DNA of 64,000 nucleotides from an uncultured Monoglobus sp. (GTDB lineage Bacteria > Bacillota > Clostridia > Monoglobales > Monoglobaceae): NCBI GenBank assembly GCA_947628795.1, contig CANRBF010000002.1, positions 62,001 through 126,000 on the forward strand, in the 5' to 3' direction. The translations under genes and the position numbers were made by a program. Shown piece after piece: positions 8,793 through 49,759 of this stretch (the stretch's first letter is position 1; every line of letters starts with the position of its first letter). The notes under the pieces were generated by a model. That model did not search any database. It was not told the origin of the DNA and worked only from the letters and a program-made list of their open reading frames with translations.

Positions 8793-9278
8793 ATGAAAAA
8801 ATATATAAATATATTTGCGGTTTTACTTTTTTTGACAGCTCTTCTCAGCGGCTGCGGCGATGACGCGGCCGTTGACTATACTTATTCTCCAAATGTGGGG
8901 TTCGGGGAAGTTTTTTATGAGTTTACCGATATAAGAGCCGCTTCAAACAGCCTTCTAAACGGCGCGATTGACGCGTCATGGTGGAACAGCTTTGATTCGG
9001 TTAAAGACAATGTAAACGCGGCTGACCTTGCGGCGAAATCCATAAGAGACATTGATAGCCTCTCAAGCGCCGATGCCGCGCTCTGTCCCGTATTGTCCGA
9101 GGTTTTGGACGCGTACGCAAGCGCGTTTGACATCATGAGCGCTTCGCGCGACGGCGCGGATTCGGAAATTGCAGCATATGCCTTGAACGGCTTTAAGCAA
9201 AAAATAACCGGAGCCAACAGCCGTTGGGATGCTGCGTTAAGCGCTGCGGCCGCGCAGACCGCCGCCGCAACGCCTTGA
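8793..9278 (+). CDS. Small lipoprotein of unknown function
   Basis: 161 residues starting with a lipoprotein signal peptide: KK, a hydrophobic stretch, and lipobox LLSGC with the modified Cys at about residue 21. The mature part is rich in Ala, Asp and Ser, predicted mostly helical, with no Cys or obvious catalytic motif and no family that I recognise. It follows thiN by 22 bases and is probably the last gene of the fmt-to-thiN run. It ends 2 bases before the convergent YtxC-like gene, with no obvious terminator between. Confidence 0.75.
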   Translation: MKKYINIFAVLLFLTALLSGCGDDAAVDYTYSPNVGFGEVFYEFTDIRAASNSLLNGAIDASWWNSFDSVKDNVNAADLAAKSIRDIDSLSSADAALCPVLSEVLDAYASAFDIMSASRDGADSEIAAYALNGFKQKITGANSRWDAALSAAAAQTAAATP

Positions 9279-9280
9279 TT

Positions 9281-9772
9281 TCATATGCGCGTCAGTAAAT
9301 CAAGAATATCAAGAAGCTCAAAATAATCCTTAAGTTCCTTATCGCCAAGGATATCGCAGCCGCATTCTTCAACAAGAATTCTGAGCTCGTCTTTATACGC
9401 TTTAAGTCTGAAATTAATAAATCCGTCTATGTTCATTTTGCTGTCATGCTCAAAGAATTCCAGCAGTTTGCTTTTAATATATTCGAGATGCCTAAGTTTG
9501 TATCTGCAGCTTATTATATCACACACGCCTCTGTATACCTCGTCTCTGTCCTCGGTGTCGAGTTTTCCGAAAACATCGTCTATACAGTCATAAATCAGCT
9601 TTGAACGATATTTAGCCACAAGCCATCTCGCAATCAAACCGGCGGTTTCGCTGTCGGGTATTTCACCGTCCGCCTCCAGCACCGCCGGCAGGTCATAATT
9701 ATCATTTATATCCGATATATCCAAATCATCCGATTGGTCAATTTCATCATTAGTGAGTTCGTTTATATTCAT
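9281..9772 (-). CDS. YtxC-like sporulation protein
   Basis: 163 residues. The C-terminal half carries the pattern of the YtxC family (putative sporulation proteins of Bacilli and Clostridia): MNIDGFINFRLKAYKDEL followed by an acidic helix. The N-terminus is acidic and shorter than in the roughly 280-residue Bacillus protein. Start choice: ATG at 9772, preceded by GGAGG at a usable distance; a GTG 12 bases upstream overlaps the ribosome site itself. It follows the GME-fold gene by only 4 bases and is probably co-transcribed with it. The molecular role of the family is not known. Confidence 0.65.
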   Translation of the reverse strand: MNINELTNDEIDQSDDLDISDINDNYDLPAVLEADGEIPDSETAGLIARWLVAKYRSKLIYDCIDDVFGKLDTEDRDEVYRGVCDIISCRYKLRHLEYIKSKLLEFFEHDSKMNIDGFINFRLKAYKDELRILVEECGCDILGDKELKDYFELLDILDLLTRI

Positions 9773-9776
9773 TCTT

Positions 9777-10469
9777 TCAACCACCTCCGTATATCAGGCT
9801 TCCGTAGTCTGTGAGCGCGCCGTTTGAAGCGCAAAAATATTCTATATTCAGGTCATTCAAAAACTTTTTTACTGCAGTGTCGGGATTTCCGAAAAACACG
9901 GCCGTTTCTCCGATCAGTCCGCTCGTGCCGCCGATGAAGCCGTTGCCGTACCCTTCCAGTATTATCCGCGATTGATCGGTTTTAAGGCATTTTATGTTAT
10001 CAAGCTTTTGAAGCAGCGCATAGAGTCCGCTGTCTCCGGTTATAACCGCGCTGCCGCTCACGATTGCAAGACTGCATTTTGCATATCCTTGATTTGTGTT
10101 TACGATACAAAAGCCGTGCTTTTTATAGTATTCTAAAATTTTAGGCTCCGTATACCGCGTATTGGCGATAACATATTTTCCCAGCCTTGCTGCATTATAT
10201 GCAATGTCCGAGGGATACGTGTCCTTCGGGGTCACAGTGCCCGGAATCAAATTGACGCCGCTCAGAGTCGACGAATAGTATTCATAGCACTCGGGAGCGC
10301 ATATTGCCGTGTTTTTACTTACAAAATGGATCTGCATGTCGGGATGAGCTGCGGTTGATCCCGAAACGTTTTTAAGCATCACACTTTTTACTATAGTTTC
10401 GTTCGGAAATCTTTTTGATATACTGTCAATTATTTCATTCGTACAGATTTGATTAATTATAATTGCCAT
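9777..10469 (-). CDS. DUF6873-like GME-fold (amidinotransferase-like) protein
   Basis: 230 residues. Sequence pieces such as YPSDIAYNAARLGKYVIANT, a central HGFCIVNTNQGYAKCS and the C-terminal IEYFCASNGALTDYGSL resemble clostridial proteins assigned to a guanidine-modifying-enzyme (GME) fold family, from memory DUF6873; that assignment is not checked. A Cys (KCSLAIV) sits where GME enzymes can have a nucleophile, but activity is unproven. The start is ATG 10469 after GAGGTG; the frame remains open another 52 codons upstream but without a ribosome site. Divergent from the 45-residue Cys-rich gene. Confidence 0.6.
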   Translation of the reverse strand: MAIIINQICTNEIIDSISKRFPNETIVKSVMLKNVSGSTAAHPDMQIHFVSKNTAICAPECYEYYSSTLSGVNLIPGTVTPKDTYPSDIAYNAARLGKYVIANTRYTEPKILEYYKKHGFCIVNTNQGYAKCSLAIVSGSAVITGDSGLYALLQKLDNIKCLKTDQSRIILEGYGNGFIGGTSGLIGETAVFFGNPDTAVKKFLNDLNIEYFCASNGALTDYGSLIYGGG

Positions 10470-10557
10470 AAAAACACCTCGATTAAAATATAAATGCTTC
10501 TGTTTTTTAGAATAATAAATCCGATGTTGCTCAGAATAAGAACGGGAGGTGAAAATT

Positions 10558-43511: not shown

Positions 43512-45899
43512 TTATTTTGTTTCGGCCGCGGCCACGCTCGGAAGTATCGTAACCGCGATCTCACCGTCAGCGGCGTCAACGAACGCCGTCTTTCCGTGAG
43601 TCATGGTTCCGTCGATCAAGAGCCGCGCCAGCTTATCCTCGATATTTTTTTCGATATATCTGCGCATCGGACGCGCGCCGTAACGTTTGTCGTACGATTT
43701 TTCAACGACCAGCTCTTTAGCCTCTTCTGAAACCTCAAGACATATGTCCTTTTCTTTAAGACCGTCTCTTAAATCATTAAGCATAAGGTCTACGATCCCC
43801 ACAAGGTCATCTTTTTTAAGCTCGCTGAAAATAATAACGTCGTCAACGCGGTTCAAAAATTCCGGTCTGAAAAGCTGCTTGAGCGCGCGGTCTATCTTTA
43901 TGCGCGTCGCTTCCTCGGCTTCGTTAAATCCGACAACGTTGGACTTGCTGTCGCTTCCGGCGTTTGATGTCATGATTATTATCGTGTTCTCAAAATTCAC
44001 GACTTTGCCGTGGCTGTCTGTTATCCTGCCGTCGTCTAAAATTTGCAGAAGAATGTTGAAGACATCCTCGTGCGCTTTTTCTATCTCATCAAGCAGAATA
44101 ACGCTGTACGGTCTGCGGCGTATTTTTTCGGTCAGCTGACCCGCCTCGTCGTAGCCCACATATCCGGGCGGCGAGCCGATTATTTTCGAGACCGAGTGCT
44201 TTTCCATGTATTCCGACATGTCAAGCCGAATGAGCGACTCCTCGCCGTCAAAAACTTCCCGCGCTATCTGCTTGGCAAGCTCGGTTTTGCCGACTCCCGT
44301 GGGGCCGACGAAGATAAACGAAACGGGGCGGCGCTTGAGATTTATTCCCGCTCTCTTTCTGCGGATAGCGTTTGCCGCGCCCGTAACGGCCTCGTCCTGA
44401 CCTATAACGCCCGCGTGAAGTCTGTTCTCAAGGTCGGTAAGCCGCTCGGACTCGTATTCCGATATGTGCTTTACCGGAATTTTTGTCCAATTTTCGATTA
44501 CCGCGGCCACGTCCTCGGGCTCAATGTATTTGACAGCGGATCTGCTCACATTATCTATCTTTGACTTGAGCTGCAGCTCATGTACTTTAAGGTCCGCGGC
44601 TTCCTGATAGTTGTCAGCCTCGGCTGCCGCGTCCTTTTTTTGCACCGTTTCGGCAAGCTCGGCGTTTAGGCGTTCAAGCTCTATCAGCTCGCGGTTGTTT
44701 AAGTTTACTTTCGAGGCGGCCTCGTCGATAACGTCGATTGCTTTATCGGGCAAAAATCTGTCCTGTATATATCTTTCGGATAAAATGGCGGCTGTTTTGA
44801 GTATTTCATCGGTTATTTTCACATGGTGATAGTTCTCGTAATAACCTTTTATGCCCTTTAGTATCTCGATAGTCTCGTCGATCGTGGGCTCGTCTACCAT
44901 AACGGTTTGGAATCTGCGCTCGAGCGCCGAGTCTTTTTCAATATGTTTTCTGTACTCGTCAATGGTCGTGGCTCCGATGACTTGGATCTCACCCTTGGCT
45001 AAAGCGGGCTTTAAAATATTTCCCGCGTTCATACCGCCTTCCGCGTCGCCCGCCGAAGCGATCGTGTGTATCTCGTCGATAACCAGAATAATGTTTCCGG
45101 CTTTTTTCACCTCATTGATTATGTTTCTGAGCCTTGATTCAAATTGGCCGCGGAACTGTGTGCCCGCGATAACCGATGTCATATCAAGCAGATATATCTC
45201 GGTGTTCATCAGCTTGTGCGGAACCTCACCGTTTACTATTTTAAGAGCCAGTCCCTCAGCGATGGCCGTTTTGCCGACCCCGGGCTCGCCGATCAAACAC
45301 GGATTGTTTTTTGTCCGCCTGTTAAGTATCTGTACAGTGCGCTCGATCTCGGAATTTCTGCCGATGACCGCGTCGATCTCACCGTTTGCCGCGCGGGCGG
45401 TCAAATTAACTCCGTAAGTGTCAAGCATACGGTTCTTTTTGCGCTCGCGAGCGGCACGCGGAGCGGTTTTTTTATTATCATCTTTTTGCTCGTTATTCTG
45501 CTGTCTGCCGGGATTCATAAAACTATTAAAAATGCCCGACATATTAAACGGGTCGCGCTGGCGGCTTTTACCCATCGGTTCGTCGCCGTTTGCCTCGTCG
45601 TCCTCGCTTTCGACCGATATCAAATCGGCGTCTCCGCCAAGCTCCTGGCGCAGCATATTTATACTTTCTCCTATATCAAAATCATCGCCCATCTCGTCGA
45701 TGACCGACTTCATTTCACCGTTAAGTCTGTCCATCTCCTCGGCGTCAATACCCATTTTTTTCAAAATATTATCTATCGGGCCCAGATTGAGTTCCTTGGC
45801 GCACGAAAGGCAATAGCCCTCATTTTTTTGCGAGCCGTCGGGGCTGAGTCTCGATATAAACACAACAGCAAGATTTTTATGGCATCTGCAGCAAAGCAT
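43512..45899 (-). CDS. clpE: ClpE/ClpC-like AAA+ chaperone with N-terminal zinc finger
   Basis: 795 residues. Starts with a zinc finger CCRCHKN ... CLSCAKEL, as in ClpE and McsA, in place of the double Clp N-domain. Two AAA modules: GEPGVGKTAIAEGL with VIDEIHTI, and GPTGVGKTELAKQ with LLDEIEKAH; between them a coiled-coil segment with UVR-like residues (AAEADNYQEAADLK). ATG 45899 after AGGAGGGG. Works with ClpP in protein quality control. ctsR and mcsB are not adjacent and I see no CtsR operator. ClpE is the best name but ClpC-type naming is also used. Confidence 0.88.
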   Translation of the reverse strand: MLCCRCHKNLAVVFISRLSPDGSQKNEGYCLSCAKELNLGPIDNILKKMGIDAEEMDRLNGEMKSVIDEMGDDFDIGESINMLRQELGGDADLISVESEDDEANGDEPMGKSRQRDPFNMSGIFNSFMNPGRQQNNEQKDDNKKTAPRAARERKKNRMLDTYGVNLTARAANGEIDAVIGRNSEIERTVQILNRRTKNNPCLIGEPGVGKTAIAEGLALKIVNGEVPHKLMNTEIYLLDMTSVIAGTQFRGQFESRLRNIINEVKKAGNIILVIDEIHTIASAGDAEGGMNAGNILKPALAKGEIQVIGATTIDEYRKHIEKDSALERRFQTVMVDEPTIDETIEILKGIKGYYENYHHVKITDEILKTAAILSERYIQDRFLPDKAIDVIDEAASKVNLNNRELIELERLNAELAETVQKKDAAAEADNYQEAADLKVHELQLKSKIDNVSRSAVKYIEPEDVAAVIENWTKIPVKHISEYESERLTDLENRLHAGVIGQDEAVTGAANAIRRKRAGINLKRRPVSFIFVGPTGVGKTELAKQIAREVFDGEESLIRLDMSEYMEKHSVSKIIGSPPGYVGYDEAGQLTEKIRRRPYSVILLDEIEKAHEDVFNILLQILDDGRITDSHGKVVNFENTIIIMTSNAGSDSKSNVVGFNEAEEATRIKIDRALKQLFRPEFLNRVDDVIIFSELKKDDLVGIVDLMLNDLRDGLKEKDICLEVSEEAKELVVEKSYDKRYGARPMRRYIEKNIEDKLARLLIDGTMTHGKTAFVDAADGEIAVTILPSVAAAETK

Positions 45900-45931
45900 T
45901 ATACCCCTCCTATTTGCCAATATATTAAAAT

Positions 45932-45960
45932 ATTATAACACAATAAAAATGTTTTAGCAA
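45932..45960 (-). promoter_or_regulatory. Promoter of the clpE-like gene
   Basis: On the minus strand TTGCTA (45960-45955), 17 bases, TATAAT (45937-45932), about 33 bases before the ATG. Divergent from the MocR-like gene. Confidence 0.6.
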
Positions 45961-46010
45961 TAAGTTTATTTATAAAGTTTTTATCGTAATCAAATTTTGT
46001 AGAAAAATTA

Positions 46011-46048
46011 CTTGTATTCTTGTATTTTTTATTGATTTGTGGTATAAT
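46011..46048 (+). promoter_or_regulatory. Promoter with tandem 8-base repeat before the MocR-like gene
   Basis: TATAAT (46043-46048) with TTGTAT (46020-46025) 17 bases upstream. The -35 lies in a perfect tandem repeat CTTGTATT CTTGTATT (46011-46026). MocR regulators often bind direct repeats at their own promoter, so this may be an autoregulatory site. Confidence 0.5.
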
Positions 46049-46081
46049 TCTTATGAAATATAAGATACGGGAGAGTAATAC

Positions 46082-47482
46082 ATGGCAATACAAAATTTTG
46101 TCGGCAAAAATAACGGTATACCGCTTTACTTACAGCTAAAGCGGGCTTTGATCGAAGAGATCAAAGCCGGGAAATACGAAAATATGCAAAAGCTTCCGTC
46201 GAGAAGAAAATTGGCGAGAACGCTGGATCTCAGCACAACGACCATAAATAACGCCTATCAGGCGCTTGTTGACGAGGGTTACGCCGTCACGATAGACCGC
46301 AGCGGTTTTTACGCCAGAACCTTTGAATCGACAAACGATGAATATAACGATATTGTTTGGGAAACGAGCACAGAGTATTCCTATAATTTCAGCTACAACA
46401 ACTGCGACACTTCGTTTTTGGAGGAATACTTTATTATTCCGTCCGAAAAATATAACAAAGCGATCGAAAACAACTCCCAAATTTTGTCGGCCCACGGCAA
46501 CAAGAGGGGCGAGCCCGGTCTCCGTGTCGAGCTTTCGAAGTTTTTAAGCCAATTCAGAGGAATAAACTGCTCCATTAATGATATCATAATCGGCGCGGGG
46601 ATCCAATACCTTTTGACTTCTATCGTAATGATCCTCGGGACAGACAAGGTTTACGGCTTTGAAAACCCCACCGATTATAAAATGTATATATGGCTTAAAA
46701 ATCTCGGCGTTAATATAAAATTTCTGAACATCACAGCGCATAACAGAATAATTCCGGATGAGCTTGACAAACTCGGCATTGACGTTATGATTCTAATGCC
46801 CGAGAACCAACTCCCGACCGGCCGCAGAATGGGGCTTGAGGAAAGACAGGAGCTTGCCCGCTGGTGCTCGGGCTCCAATGATAAATATATCATTGAAACA
46901 GGAACCGACGGATATCTGAATTATACTGACAATATAATAAGCACGATATACGCCCTCGCCGAATCAAATGTGATTTATCTTGAGAGTTTTGAATATATTA
47001 TATCACCGAATATTCACGCGTCATATATGGTGCTTCCGCCAGGCACAATTGATTCCGTGATAAAAAAGCTTGAAATATTTTCGCCTCTTGTCACGGCTTA
47101 CGAGCAGGAAATATATCATAATATGCTGAGCGGAGGCTTTTTAAAAAAACTGATACTTAAAAATAATAAAAATATGAAGAAAAAGCGCGATTATTTGATC
47201 TCGGAGCTTAAGGCCTCGGAAATAGGCGACCGCTTCGCCGCCGTCAACACCGAAACAGGAATGAACTTTCTCGGAATAATTGAGAGCGGAGTAAGCGGCA
47301 TTGAGCTTACGCGCGCCGCGTTTGACGCGGGTGTAAAAGTATTCGAGATGAGCAAATTTTTGAATAATCCGAATCCTCAAATCGAGCATCGAGCCTTTGT
47401 GTTCGGATACGGCGGCCTGAATATTCGCGAGATCAAGGACGCGGTAAAGCGCATTGAAAGAGTTTGGAACAGGATTGATTAG
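46082..47482 (+). CDS. MocR-like regulator (GntR wHTH plus degenerate aminotransferase fold)
   Basis: 466 residues. N-terminal GntR winged helix (IPLYLQLKRALIEEIKAGKY, LPSRRKLARTLDLSTTTINNAY, about 10-80), then a type I aminotransferase-like domain. The PLP-lysine block, normally GTFSKSLxPxLRIGYMVLP, here reads ESFEYIISPNIHASYMVLP (301-319): the lysine position is Y305 and the Arg is His. The DDYDSEF block reads TGTDGYLNY. So PLP binding is doubtful. It is expected to act as a transcription factor; its target is unknown. Divergent from the Clp gene. Confidence 0.8.
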   Translation: MAIQNFVGKNNGIPLYLQLKRALIEEIKAGKYENMQKLPSRRKLARTLDLSTTTINNAYQALVDEGYAVTIDRSGFYARTFESTNDEYNDIVWETSTEYSYNFSYNNCDTSFLEEYFIIPSEKYNKAIENNSQILSAHGNKRGEPGLRVELSKFLSQFRGINCSINDIIIGAGIQYLLTSIVMILGTDKVYGFENPTDYKMYIWLKNLGVNIKFLNITAHNRIIPDELDKLGIDVMILMPENQLPTGRRMGLEERQELARWCSGSNDKYIIETGTDGYLNYTDNIISTIYALAESNVIYLESFEYIISPNIHASYMVLPPGTIDSVIKKLEIFSPLVTAYEQEIYHNMLSGGFLKKLILKNNKNMKKKRDYLISELKASEIGDRFAAVNTETGMNFLGIIESGVSGIELTRAAFDAGVKVFEMSKFLNNPNPQIEHRAFVFGYGGLNIREIKDAVKRIERVWNRID

Positions 47483-47582: not shown

Positions 47583-47939
47583 ATGAAGATTACTGTTGCC
47601 GAAGCGTACGCGAGCCTTAACGAAAACTATGACGAGGTGCTCACACGCCTGCTTGGAAAAGAAAACCTGGTAATTAAATATCTTACCATGTTCAAAAACG
47701 ACGGAACATACGCTCAGCTTTCCGCCGCGTATCAAAAAGGCGACGCGGAGGAATCGCTTAAAGCAGCGCACTCCCTCAAGGGAATGTGCTTTAATTTGGG
47801 TCTGATCGGGCTCGGCACAGCCTGTTCCGATATGGTAGACGCGATCCGCGGCGGCGAGTATGACCTTGACGCACTGTACCGACCGATCGAATCGGAGTAC
47901 GAAAAGGTTATCGACGCTCTTAATAAATGTCTTGATTGA
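47583..47939 (+). CDS. Hpt-domain histidine phosphotransfer protein
   Basis: 118 residues forming a single Hpt helical bundle. The phosphorylated His is H63 in AAHSLKGMCFNLGL. No other domain. It relays phosphate between a hybrid kinase and a response regulator. TTGGAG precedes the ATG. The HD-GYP response regulator gene starts 29 bases later, so the two probably act in one relay; no histidine kinase is adjacent. Confidence 0.88.
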   Translation: MKITVAEAYASLNENYDEVLTRLLGKENLVIKYLTMFKNDGTYAQLSAAYQKGDAEESLKAAHSLKGMCFNLGLIGLGTACSDMVDAIRGGEYDLDALYRPIESEYEKVIDALNKCLD

Positions 47940-47968
47940 TTTTAGAATTTTTATTGACGGAGGAAATT

Positions 47969-49087
47969 ATGACAAAAACTAAGCCGACTGTTCTGATTGT
48001 CGATGACATGGAAATGAACAGAGTTATGCTGAATGATATTCTGGAATCTGATTTCAACACGATCGAAGCCGATAACGGAACGCGGGCAATTGAGATCATA
48101 GAAAGTAATTACGAAAATATTTCCGCTGTTCTGCTCGACGCAATGATGCCCGAGCCGGACGGTTTTGAGGTGCTTAAAATATTATCCCGCAAAGGGCTTT
48201 TGGAGAATATGCCGGTGATTATGATATCAGCCGAAAATTCTCCCGAGTATATCGCCCGCGGTTACGACCTCGGCGTTGTCGACTACATAAGCAGACCATT
48301 TGACCCGAATATAGTTTTAAGACGCCTTTCCAATGTTATTATTCTTTACGCGAAGCAGAATCTTCTGACAGCTTTGATAAAAGAGCAGATATCAAAGCGC
48401 GAGGAAAACAACACAATGCTGATCGATGTGCTCAGTTCGCTTGTCGAGTTCAGAAACGGCGAGTCGGGTCCTCATGTTTTGCATATACGCCGTCTGACGG
48501 AATTGCTTTTAAACGAGCTGCCGCGGCTTGACTCCAAATATTATATGCCGCCGCAGGACATCGCCATGTGGGCGACTGCCTCGGCTATGCACGACATCGG
48601 CAAGATAGCGATAGATGACAAGATCCTCAACAAGCCCGGACGGCTGACGGACGAGGAATTTAAAATAATGAAAAAACACACGATATACGGCTATGAGATA
48701 TTGAACCATCTTAACTGGCACAACGCGCCGCTTATCGAGGCAGCTAAACAGATATGCCGTTGGCACCACGAGCGCTGGGACGGCGGAGGATATCCGGACG
48801 GTTTAAAGGGCGGCGAGATCCCGATACCCGCGCAAGTTGTCGCCATCGCGGACGTGTATGACGCGCTGACAAGCGAGAGAGTTTATAAGCCCGCTTACAG
48901 CCACGAAAAGGCGCTCGACATGATAACAGGCGGCGAGTGCGGAGCGTTTAACCCCGACCTTTTGGAAGCTCTTGTGCAGATCGGACCAAACATAAAAAAT
49001 AAAATGGATGACGACACAGACCAAGATTACGATCAGATTGCCGAGCAGATATTCGAGGGTCTGAGAGAAAAATTGAGTGAAATTTAA
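47969..49087 (+). CDS. Response regulator with HD-GYP phosphodiesterase domain
   Basis: 372 residues. Receiver domain 1-125 (DD at 12-13, phosphoacceptor D57 in LLDAMMPEPDG), then a helical linker and an HD-GYP domain with H208-D209 (MHDIGK) and HHERWDGGGYP at 266-276, including the GYP signature. Expected to degrade cyclic di-GMP or related cyclic dinucleotides under phosphorylation control. ATG 47969 with CGGAGG upstream; the frame opens earlier, inside the hpt gene. Confidence 0.92.
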   Translation: MTKTKPTVLIVDDMEMNRVMLNDILESDFNTIEADNGTRAIEIIESNYENISAVLLDAMMPEPDGFEVLKILSRKGLLENMPVIMISAENSPEYIARGYDLGVVDYISRPFDPNIVLRRLSNVIILYAKQNLLTALIKEQISKREENNTMLIDVLSSLVEFRNGESGPHVLHIRRLTELLLNELPRLDSKYYMPPQDIAMWATASAMHDIGKIAIDDKILNKPGRLTDEEFKIMKKHTIYGYEILNHLNWHNAPLIEAAKQICRWHHERWDGGGYPDGLKGGEIPIPAQVVAIADVYDALTSERVYKPAYSHEKALDMITGGECGAFNPDLLEALVQIGPNIKNKMDDDTDQDYDQIAEQIFEGLREKLSEI

Positions 49088-49114
49088 TATTTTTAAATAA
49101 ACGGAGGAATGAAA

Positions 49115-49759
49115 ATGAGTTTAGTTATTAAGTCTGTTTCGGACAAGGATTTCGTGAAATACGGCAGAGTGGTCGACGGATACGACTTCGGTGAGCTTCT
49201 GTCCACACTTGAGAAATGCTCCCCCAAGCCCGAGGATGTTGTCTATGTTCCATCGTGTCCCGAACTTGAGGCTCATGAGGCGAAAAAATATTTAAGCGAT
49301 AACGTCTACGGCGGAATGCCGATCCAGATCGGTTACTGCAACGGCACAAACACCAAGCTTAACTGCCTTGAGTACCACAAGGACAGCGAGATCGACATAG
49401 CGGCAGATGATGTCGTTCTGCTTGTGGGAAGTCAGCAGGACGCGGCGGCGGGAACCTACGACACATCTAAGATTGAGGCATTTTTATGTCCGAAAGGCAC
49501 CGCGGTCGAGCTATACGCCACGACAATGCACTACGCGCCTTGCAGCGCCAAGCTTGGCGAGGGATTCAGAGTTGTTATCGTTCTTCCCAAGGGCACCAAC
49601 TACGACAAGCCCGATATAAAGATCACAAATGATGAGGACAAGCGCCTGTTCGCGAGCAACAAATGGCTGATCGCTCATCCCGACGCGCCCGAGGCGGAGC
49701 AGGGCGCGGTCGTTGCCATAACCGGCGATAACACCGATATTGCCGAGCTTATTAAATAA
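49115..49759 (+). CDS. DUF4867 family protein (cupin-like)
   Basis: 214 residues resembling clostridial DUF4867 proteins. Pattern: VIKSVSDKDFVKYGRVVDGYD, GGMPIQIGYCNGTNTKLNCLEYHKDSE, the TMHYAPC block and FRVVIVLPKGTN. The His/Glu-bearing beta strands suggest a cupin fold, related in shape to ureidoglycolate lyase, but activity is unknown. ATG 49115 is 7 bases from GGAGG; an ATG at 49109 is too close to it. No operon partner of known function. Confidence 0.75.
   Translation: MSLVIKSVSDKDFVKYGRVVDGYDFGELLSTLEKCSPKPEDVVYVPSCPELEAHEAKKYLSDNVYGGMPIQIGYCNGTNTKLNCLEYHKDSEIDIAADDVVLLVGSQQDAAAGTYDTSKIEAFLCPKGTAVELYATTMHYAPCSAKLGEGFRVVIVLPKGTNYDKPDIKITNDEDKRLFASNKWLIAHPDAPEAEQGAVVAITGDNTDIAELIK

Follow-up and report, generated by a model that had tools for sequence, protein, structure and literature searches.

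The window, a stretch of 64,000 nucleotides from an uncultured Monoglobus sp., contains a gene for a MocR-type regulator that lacks the PLP lysine. The gene lies divergently beside one for a ClpE-like unfoldase. The features of the locus, with the evidence for each in brackets, are these:

43512..45899, minus strand: divergent gene for a ClpE-like AAA+ unfoldase with an N-terminal zinc-finger-like segment (Pfam AAA_2, ClpB_D2-small)
45900..46081, no strand: intergenic region, presumed operator/promoter (divergent arrangement in 9/11 orthologue loci)
46082..47482, plus strand: gene for the MocR-type regulator, 466 aa, without the PLP lysine (open reading frame, PF00392, NCBIfam models, PDB matches, AlphaFold2)
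46124..46312, plus strand: intact winged helix-turn-helix (wHTH), residues 15-77 (PF00392, 1.9e-11)
46373..47476, plus strand: aminotransferase-fold sensor/dimer domain, residues 98-465 (structure match to the GabR C-terminal domain)
46673..46681, plus strand: D198-Y199-K200 at the place of GabR Y205-R207, putative new pocket residues (invariant in 11/11 orthologues)
46898..46906, plus strand: T273-G274-T275, aligned with GabR D279 (pyridine nitrogen) to Y281 (ring stacking) (MAFFT; roles from the available part of PMC6917764)
46994..46996, plus strand: Tyr305 where GabR has its Schiff-base lysine, K312 (phmmer and MAFFT alignments)
47015..47017, plus strand: His312 where GabR has R319 (PLP phosphate) (MAFFT alignment)
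47354..47356, plus strand: Lys425 where GabR has R430 (effector carboxylate) (Lys in 10/10 orthologues that reach the position)

The likely start codon of the ClpE-like gene is ATG 45899, which follows a GGAGGGG ribosome-binding site; the mechanical open reading frame instead takes TTG 45920. Beyond the regulator lie genes for an Hpt protein and an HD-GYP response regulator (47583-49087), then one for a DUF4867 protein (49109-49759; PF16161, 8.5e-87). These downstream genes vary between orthologue loci. No pdx gene stands beside the regulator, whose neighbours are the ClpE-like, Hpt and HD-GYP genes.

The two-domain architecture of the MocR subfamily is present in full. PF00392 identifies the GntR wHTH, in which the segment SRRxLAxxLxLSTTTxNNAYQALVD is strongly conserved across the orthologues. 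The fold-type-I aminotransferase domain is recognized through full-length NCBIfam models and structure matches; a search with Pfam Aminotran_1_2 gives no match at E <= 1. All full-length NCBIfam matches are MocR-type models. The best is PdxR NF052282 at 302.1 bits, below its cut-off of 320, which the orthologue L017 also misses (308.3); GabR NF052285 scores 232.3 bits, under a cut-off of 600. An AlphaFold2 model, built with 48 sequences from the window and further loci, reaches a mean pLDDT of 88.6 and a pTM of 0.77. Its sensor domain superimposes on GabR C-terminal domain structures over 356-361 residues (VIA-align Z 43.8-44.3, rmsd 2.1-2.3 A).

Comparison with two characterized regulators sets out what has been kept and what has been lost. 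GabR of Bacillus subtilis (4n0b, 4mgr, 5t4j, 6uxz) shares the architecture and the fold, yet identity is about 25% and none of its nine active-site residues is retained, K312, D279, Y281, R319 and R430 included. PdxR of Bacillus clausii (7pq9) is the best PDB sequence match, with GabR 4n0b also matched, as well as the best NCBIfam match. The window protein differs from it in falling below the model cut-off, in having no pdx neighbour and in the absence of the PLP site.

Across the block aligned with the PLP lysine the reading frame gives ...NVIYLESFEYIISPNIHASYMVLP..., in which phmmer places ESFEYI on the GTFSKS and GAFSKS motifs of GabR (4n0b) and PdxR (7pq9). MAFFT puts GabR K312 on Tyr305, R319 on His312 and D279-D280-Y281-D282 on T273-G274-T275-D276. 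The initial annotation had read the locus in just this way, with Tyr for the lysine, His for the Arg after it and TGTD for the DDYD block, and the PTGRRM and SYMVLP blocks that it described as kept are indeed present. The nine active-site residues of GabR, as listed in the text available of PMC6917764, are His114, Tyr205, Arg207, Phe250, Asp279, Tyr281, Lys312, Arg319 and Arg430; at these places the window protein has Y105, D198, K200, L244, T273, T275, Y305, H312 and K425, with 0/9 identical.

The extent of this loss becomes clear when five core PLP places are scored, namely an aromatic residue (Y/F) at 205, D279, an aromatic residue (Y/F) at 281, K312 and R319. Among 64 lysine-type MocRs the score is 5 (59 proteins) or 4 (5 proteins), with Asp at the 279 place in 63 and Arg at the 319 place in 62. 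Ten of the 11 window orthologues score 0, the window protein with T273 and H312 among them, and the remaining one scores 1. Formation of a PLP aldimine by the window protein is thus very improbable. The protein is a MocR by architecture, and it falls outside the subfamily where PLP dependence is the measure.

Such a change is fixed in the genus. Orthologues of 55-94% identity number 11 and occur in 11 of the 12 Monoglobus genomes, the sole exception (G001) being a genome that is 74% complete. At the chosen E-values, searches of 38 family, 51 order and 196 class genomes gave none beyond the genus; these sets overlap, and the class set is an even draw. The lysine place holds Tyr in six orthologues, His in three, and Leu and Phe in one each. 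Retention of the lysine by orthologues had been set beforehand as the observation that would speak against a regulator acting without PLP or sensing another ligand, and it occurs in 0/11. The loss is fixed and is more than chance or sequencing error. The R319 place is not fixed (Lys in 6, His in 4, Arg in 1).

Gene decay or a wrong sequence would be another way to explain the disappearance of several motif residues and the failure of Pfam Aminotran_1_2 to match. Full length is retained in 10/11 orthologues, however, and the eleventh ends at a contig end. Between the window gene and four close orthologues, Nei-Gojobori (NG86) dN/dS ranges over 0.044-0.057 for the sensor domain, compared with 0.035-0.051 for the wHTH; the pair L014 and L016 gives 0.095 in the sensor domain. 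Sensor-domain values of 0.04-0.06 among close relatives indicate that the gene is not decaying. Decay or error is therefore refuted as far as sequence allows, and has next to no chance of being right. A pseudogene or frameshift reading was rejected on the same grounds of intact orthologues and low dN/dS. The inner TGA stops in three orthologue matches prove to be their own terminal stop codons.

With the lysine and all other PLP contacts gone from an intact and constrained protein, the regulator most likely works without PLP. This supports the suggestion of the initial annotation that it acts without the cofactor or senses a different ligand: 0/11 orthologues have the lysine, 0/9 GabR residues remain, selection is purifying and the fold is intact.

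The pattern of variation within the pocket bears on which of these applies. Places of the former PLP cradle vary among the orthologues (K312 to Y/H/L/F, D279 to T/V/F, Y281 to T/S, R319 to H/K/R). Places on the effector side, in contrast, are fixed on new residues, with Y105, D198, K200 and L244 in 11/11 and K425 in 10/10. Lysine-type proteins show the opposite, keeping D279 (63/64) and R319 (62/64) while 114, 207 and 430 are free. This contrast rests on nine positions picked from GabR and compared by inspection. In the sensor domain as a whole, 127 positions are invariant among the orthologues, and 51 of them carry a residue that is rare (<15%) in lysine-type proteins. Many of the 51 are polar, and they include D167, D198, Y199, N242, L244, N310, N389, N395 and K425. 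The invariant new residues may form a rebuilt polar pocket.

Two of the invariant lysines near the effector side, K200 and K425, could in principle serve a protein that still binds PLP or another B6 vitamer, either through one of them or non-covalently. The non-covalent form of this idea gains from Lys-to-Arg proteins of the PdxR branch beside pdxST, which keep D279 and R319 (13/13 each), as would suit PLP held without an aldimine. The window group is nevertheless also without D279, Y281, Y205 and R319. Moreover, K200 is no replacement lysine, because Lys is the commonest residue at its place in lysine-type proteins too (38/64). Residual binding of the vitamer is accordingly a quite improbable account of the window protein.

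Loss of the lysine extends well beyond this one regulator. The window's own genome encodes four MocR proteins, all without it. Across the 12 genus genomes, the full-length MocRs found lack it in 46/46 cases (Arg 34, Tyr 6, His 3, Leu 1, Phe 1, Thr 1). A class survey of 391 evenly drawn genomes, using a profile of 14 clade members at E <= 1e-90, gave matches in 100 genomes. From these, 60 further proteins were taken, the remaining matches being already in the set or left out. Their lysine place holds Lys in 45, Arg in 7, Ser in 3, Thr in 2, and Asn, Gln and His in one each. An initial tree contained 80 rows, and a second contained 117 of 140 aligned MocRs after 23 near-copies were left out. On this tree of 117, which is quick and carries SH-aLRT support only and no bootstrap, the lysine state changes about 12 times, with at least seven changes forced by starred branches, and the D279 state changes six times. 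Lysine loss is therefore recurrent, and a single origin is rejected. The initial annotation was right that the loss is real, but its frame of a single protein was too narrow for a trait that is genus-wide and recurs across the class.

Erosion of the PLP site is graded: at one end stands PdxR beside pdxST, with just the Lys changed to Arg, and at the other is total loss. Judged from the aligned residues, near-total loss is confined to one clade, to which the window gene belongs. Elsewhere, five proteins in which Ser or Thr replaces the lysine (L208, L215, L217, L219 and L222) keep the remaining PLP site, and their losses are separate from that of the window clade; L215, L219 and L222 adjoin a gene resembling a small membrane (ECF-like) protein. 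Three short MocR-like proteins of 357-367 aa (L171, L214 and L221) align with the profile over its first 350-370 positions only and may be without the small C-terminal subdomain. Short matches of this kind occur in several families of the class survey.

The mildest grade of erosion is found among candidate PdxRs. Forty MocR genes in the set stand beside pdxS, 26 with the lysine and 14 without. The PdxR candidate of the window's own genome (L008, C16; L104:7593-8963) reaches 490.8 bits against the PdxR model and is divergent from pdxS-pdxT (9006-10548). It has Arg at the lysine place and keeps the site Asp and Arg, as do all 13 rows of its group, with D279 and R319 kept in 13/13 each. Such Arg-type PdxRs may sense PLP without an aldimine. 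The presence of pdxS and pdxT means that the organism makes PLP, so the lysine loss is not due to a missing cofactor, and PLP shortage was set aside as an unlikely cause.

The gene neighbourhoods of the window clade suggest what its members may respond to instead. The clade comprises 50 proteins, 46 without the lysine (34 rows on the thinned tree, SH-aLRT 100), and the window protein falls inside it. A GH95, pectate-lyase or pectinesterase-type gene lies within 1.4 kb of the regulator in 30/50 of the clade vs 0/88 outside it. All reference enzymes in this tally were taken from G000 and G002, and it may therefore overlook distant CAZymes elsewhere; L024 is counted with the flank of L027, its own contig ending there; upstream flanks are <600 bases for L030 and L071, and downstream flanks are too short for L019 and L094. 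The 30 cases did not arise independently of one another, since orthologous loci from a single genus make up many of them. Most of these enzyme genes are divergent from the regulator, with 100-270 bp between.

Individual loci illustrate the arrangement. Lysine-less MocRs are divergent from giant secreted GH95-family proteins at L007 (L104:13205-19998), L021 (L109:3573-7484) and L086 (L112:8853-13007), and lysine-less L009 is followed by genes for two large secreted pectate lyases, one with CBM77 (L105:8846-14798). Enzyme neighbours and absence of the lysine do not go strictly together, because the clade members L165 and L166 have pectinesterase neighbours and keep the lysine. L040 and L041, also in the clade, have Lys at the site but neither D279 nor Y281 and no adjacent polysaccharide enzyme; they represent either a return to Lys or a late survival of it. 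The lysine-less paralogues resemble the window group in clade, in genus (with one further family) and in having an eroded PLP site. They differ in mostly carrying Arg at the lysine place and keeping 1-3 of the five core residues, which leaves the window group as the most eroded.

At the window gene, the case for pectin is drawn from relatives and from a single orthologue, since in 9/11 loci the regulator faces a ClpE-like gene. The shared intergenic region is about 160-180 bp long in eight of these and about 100 bp in the ninth. A polysaccharide-degrading gene is adjacent in 1/11 orthologues. In this complete genome (G002), the regulator faces a 6.4-kb gene for a secreted 2130-aa protein with pectinesterase (PF01095, 1.9e-28) and GDSL-like parts, lying before the ClpE-like gene. 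In G011 the ClpE-like and the pectinesterase-type gene are both absent. The frequent, closely spaced pairing with the ClpE-like gene is what would be expected if the regulator controlled the unfoldase in response to a stress signal rather than a polysaccharide product. Such a role is rather unlikely, however: a pectinesterase-type gene intervenes in G002, the ClpE gene is missing from G011, and adjacency kept in close relatives may be inherited without function.

A search for common words in the upstream regions of four orthologues identified no operator. These regions share 54 9-mers, compared with 7-42 in ten dinucleotide-block shuffles, and the excess is not claimed as an operator because AT-rich words, promoter or ribosome-binding-site parts and close kinship explain much of it. 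A tandem CTTGTATT at 46011-46026 was rejected as an operator, since it is not conserved in G004, G007 or G002. A promoter scan of 45850-46110 gave one site, on the minus strand, below the shuffle mean.

Laboratory mutants of other MocR regulators help to frame the mechanism. MocR regulators are described as PLP-dependent, and in the two for which the available texts report it, loss of the lysine abolishes induction or activity (PMC8739950, PMC10790758). In EnuR, according to the accessible text of PMC8739950, the lysine is present in 278/278 proteins inspected by the authors and is needed for induction; the K302H variant is unable to hold PLP and represses constitutively, and the lysine mutants stay dimeric. 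MpaR K314A is inactive, as stated in part of PMC10790758. The window protein is, like EnuR and EhuR, a MocR regulator, and it forms a natural counterpart to the K302H test. Because the EnuR and MpaR mutants fail, a natural loss must be compensated or must change the mechanism.

One way to live with the loss would be to give up sensing, so that the former aminotransferase domain only holds the dimer and the protein binds DNA constitutively or for autoregulation. The dimeric, constitutively repressing EnuR mutants (PMC8739950, as far as its available text goes) show that such a state exists, and the free variation of the PLP-cradle places fits it. A mere scaffold, though, need not fix a pocket, and here the effector side is fixed on new residues while the domain is constrained like the wHTH. 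The scaffold is hence an unlikely description, and a directly bound ligand is the likelier one because the effector side is fixed.

The favoured reading, with a probability of roughly 0.6, is that the window gene encodes a PLP-free MocR regulator whose old pocket would bind another effector directly, possibly a plant-polysaccharide product. The most likely DNA targets of the wHTH would be the regulator's own promoter and that of the divergent gene, and the aminotransferase-fold domain would still dimerise and open or close. The effector would enter the old cofactor/effector pocket directly and non-covalently, forming no external aldimine with PLP. It would more likely be polar, perhaps an acidic product of plant polysaccharide (pectin) degradation, than an amino acid or vitamin B6. 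A plant-polysaccharide product is the more likely effector because the clade mostly adjoins plant-cell-wall enzymes. Confidence is moderate that the window protein senses a ligand other than PLP and low as to which ligand this is.

A wider proposal can be put forward tentatively, with the odds somewhat against it. A clade of MocRs in gut Clostridia may have given up B6 and come to sense pectin products directly, with each member in control of a giant secreted enzyme encoded divergently or next to it. The window protein would then be the most eroded member, with D198, Y199, K200, N242, N310, N389, N395 and K425 forming a pocket for an acidic sugar.

The open-licence PMC literature yielded no description of MocRs that lack the lysine or are linked to polysaccharides. 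PMC5320631, which compares 825 MocR regulators and has 27 regulons in Clostridia, does not use the words "lysine" or "glycosyl" in its available text and has "carbohydrate" and "polysaccharide" in its reference list only. Nature has repeatedly made the lysine loss seen in laboratory mutants, as a graded series from Lys-to-Arg PdxR to total loss of the site. The Arg-type PdxRs pose the question of whether PLP sensing needs an aldimine at all, and the series bears on how an enzyme-derived, cofactor-dependent sensor becomes cofactor-free. If the pectin link is true, these proteins would be candidate regulators of pectin breakdown in a specialised gut genus.
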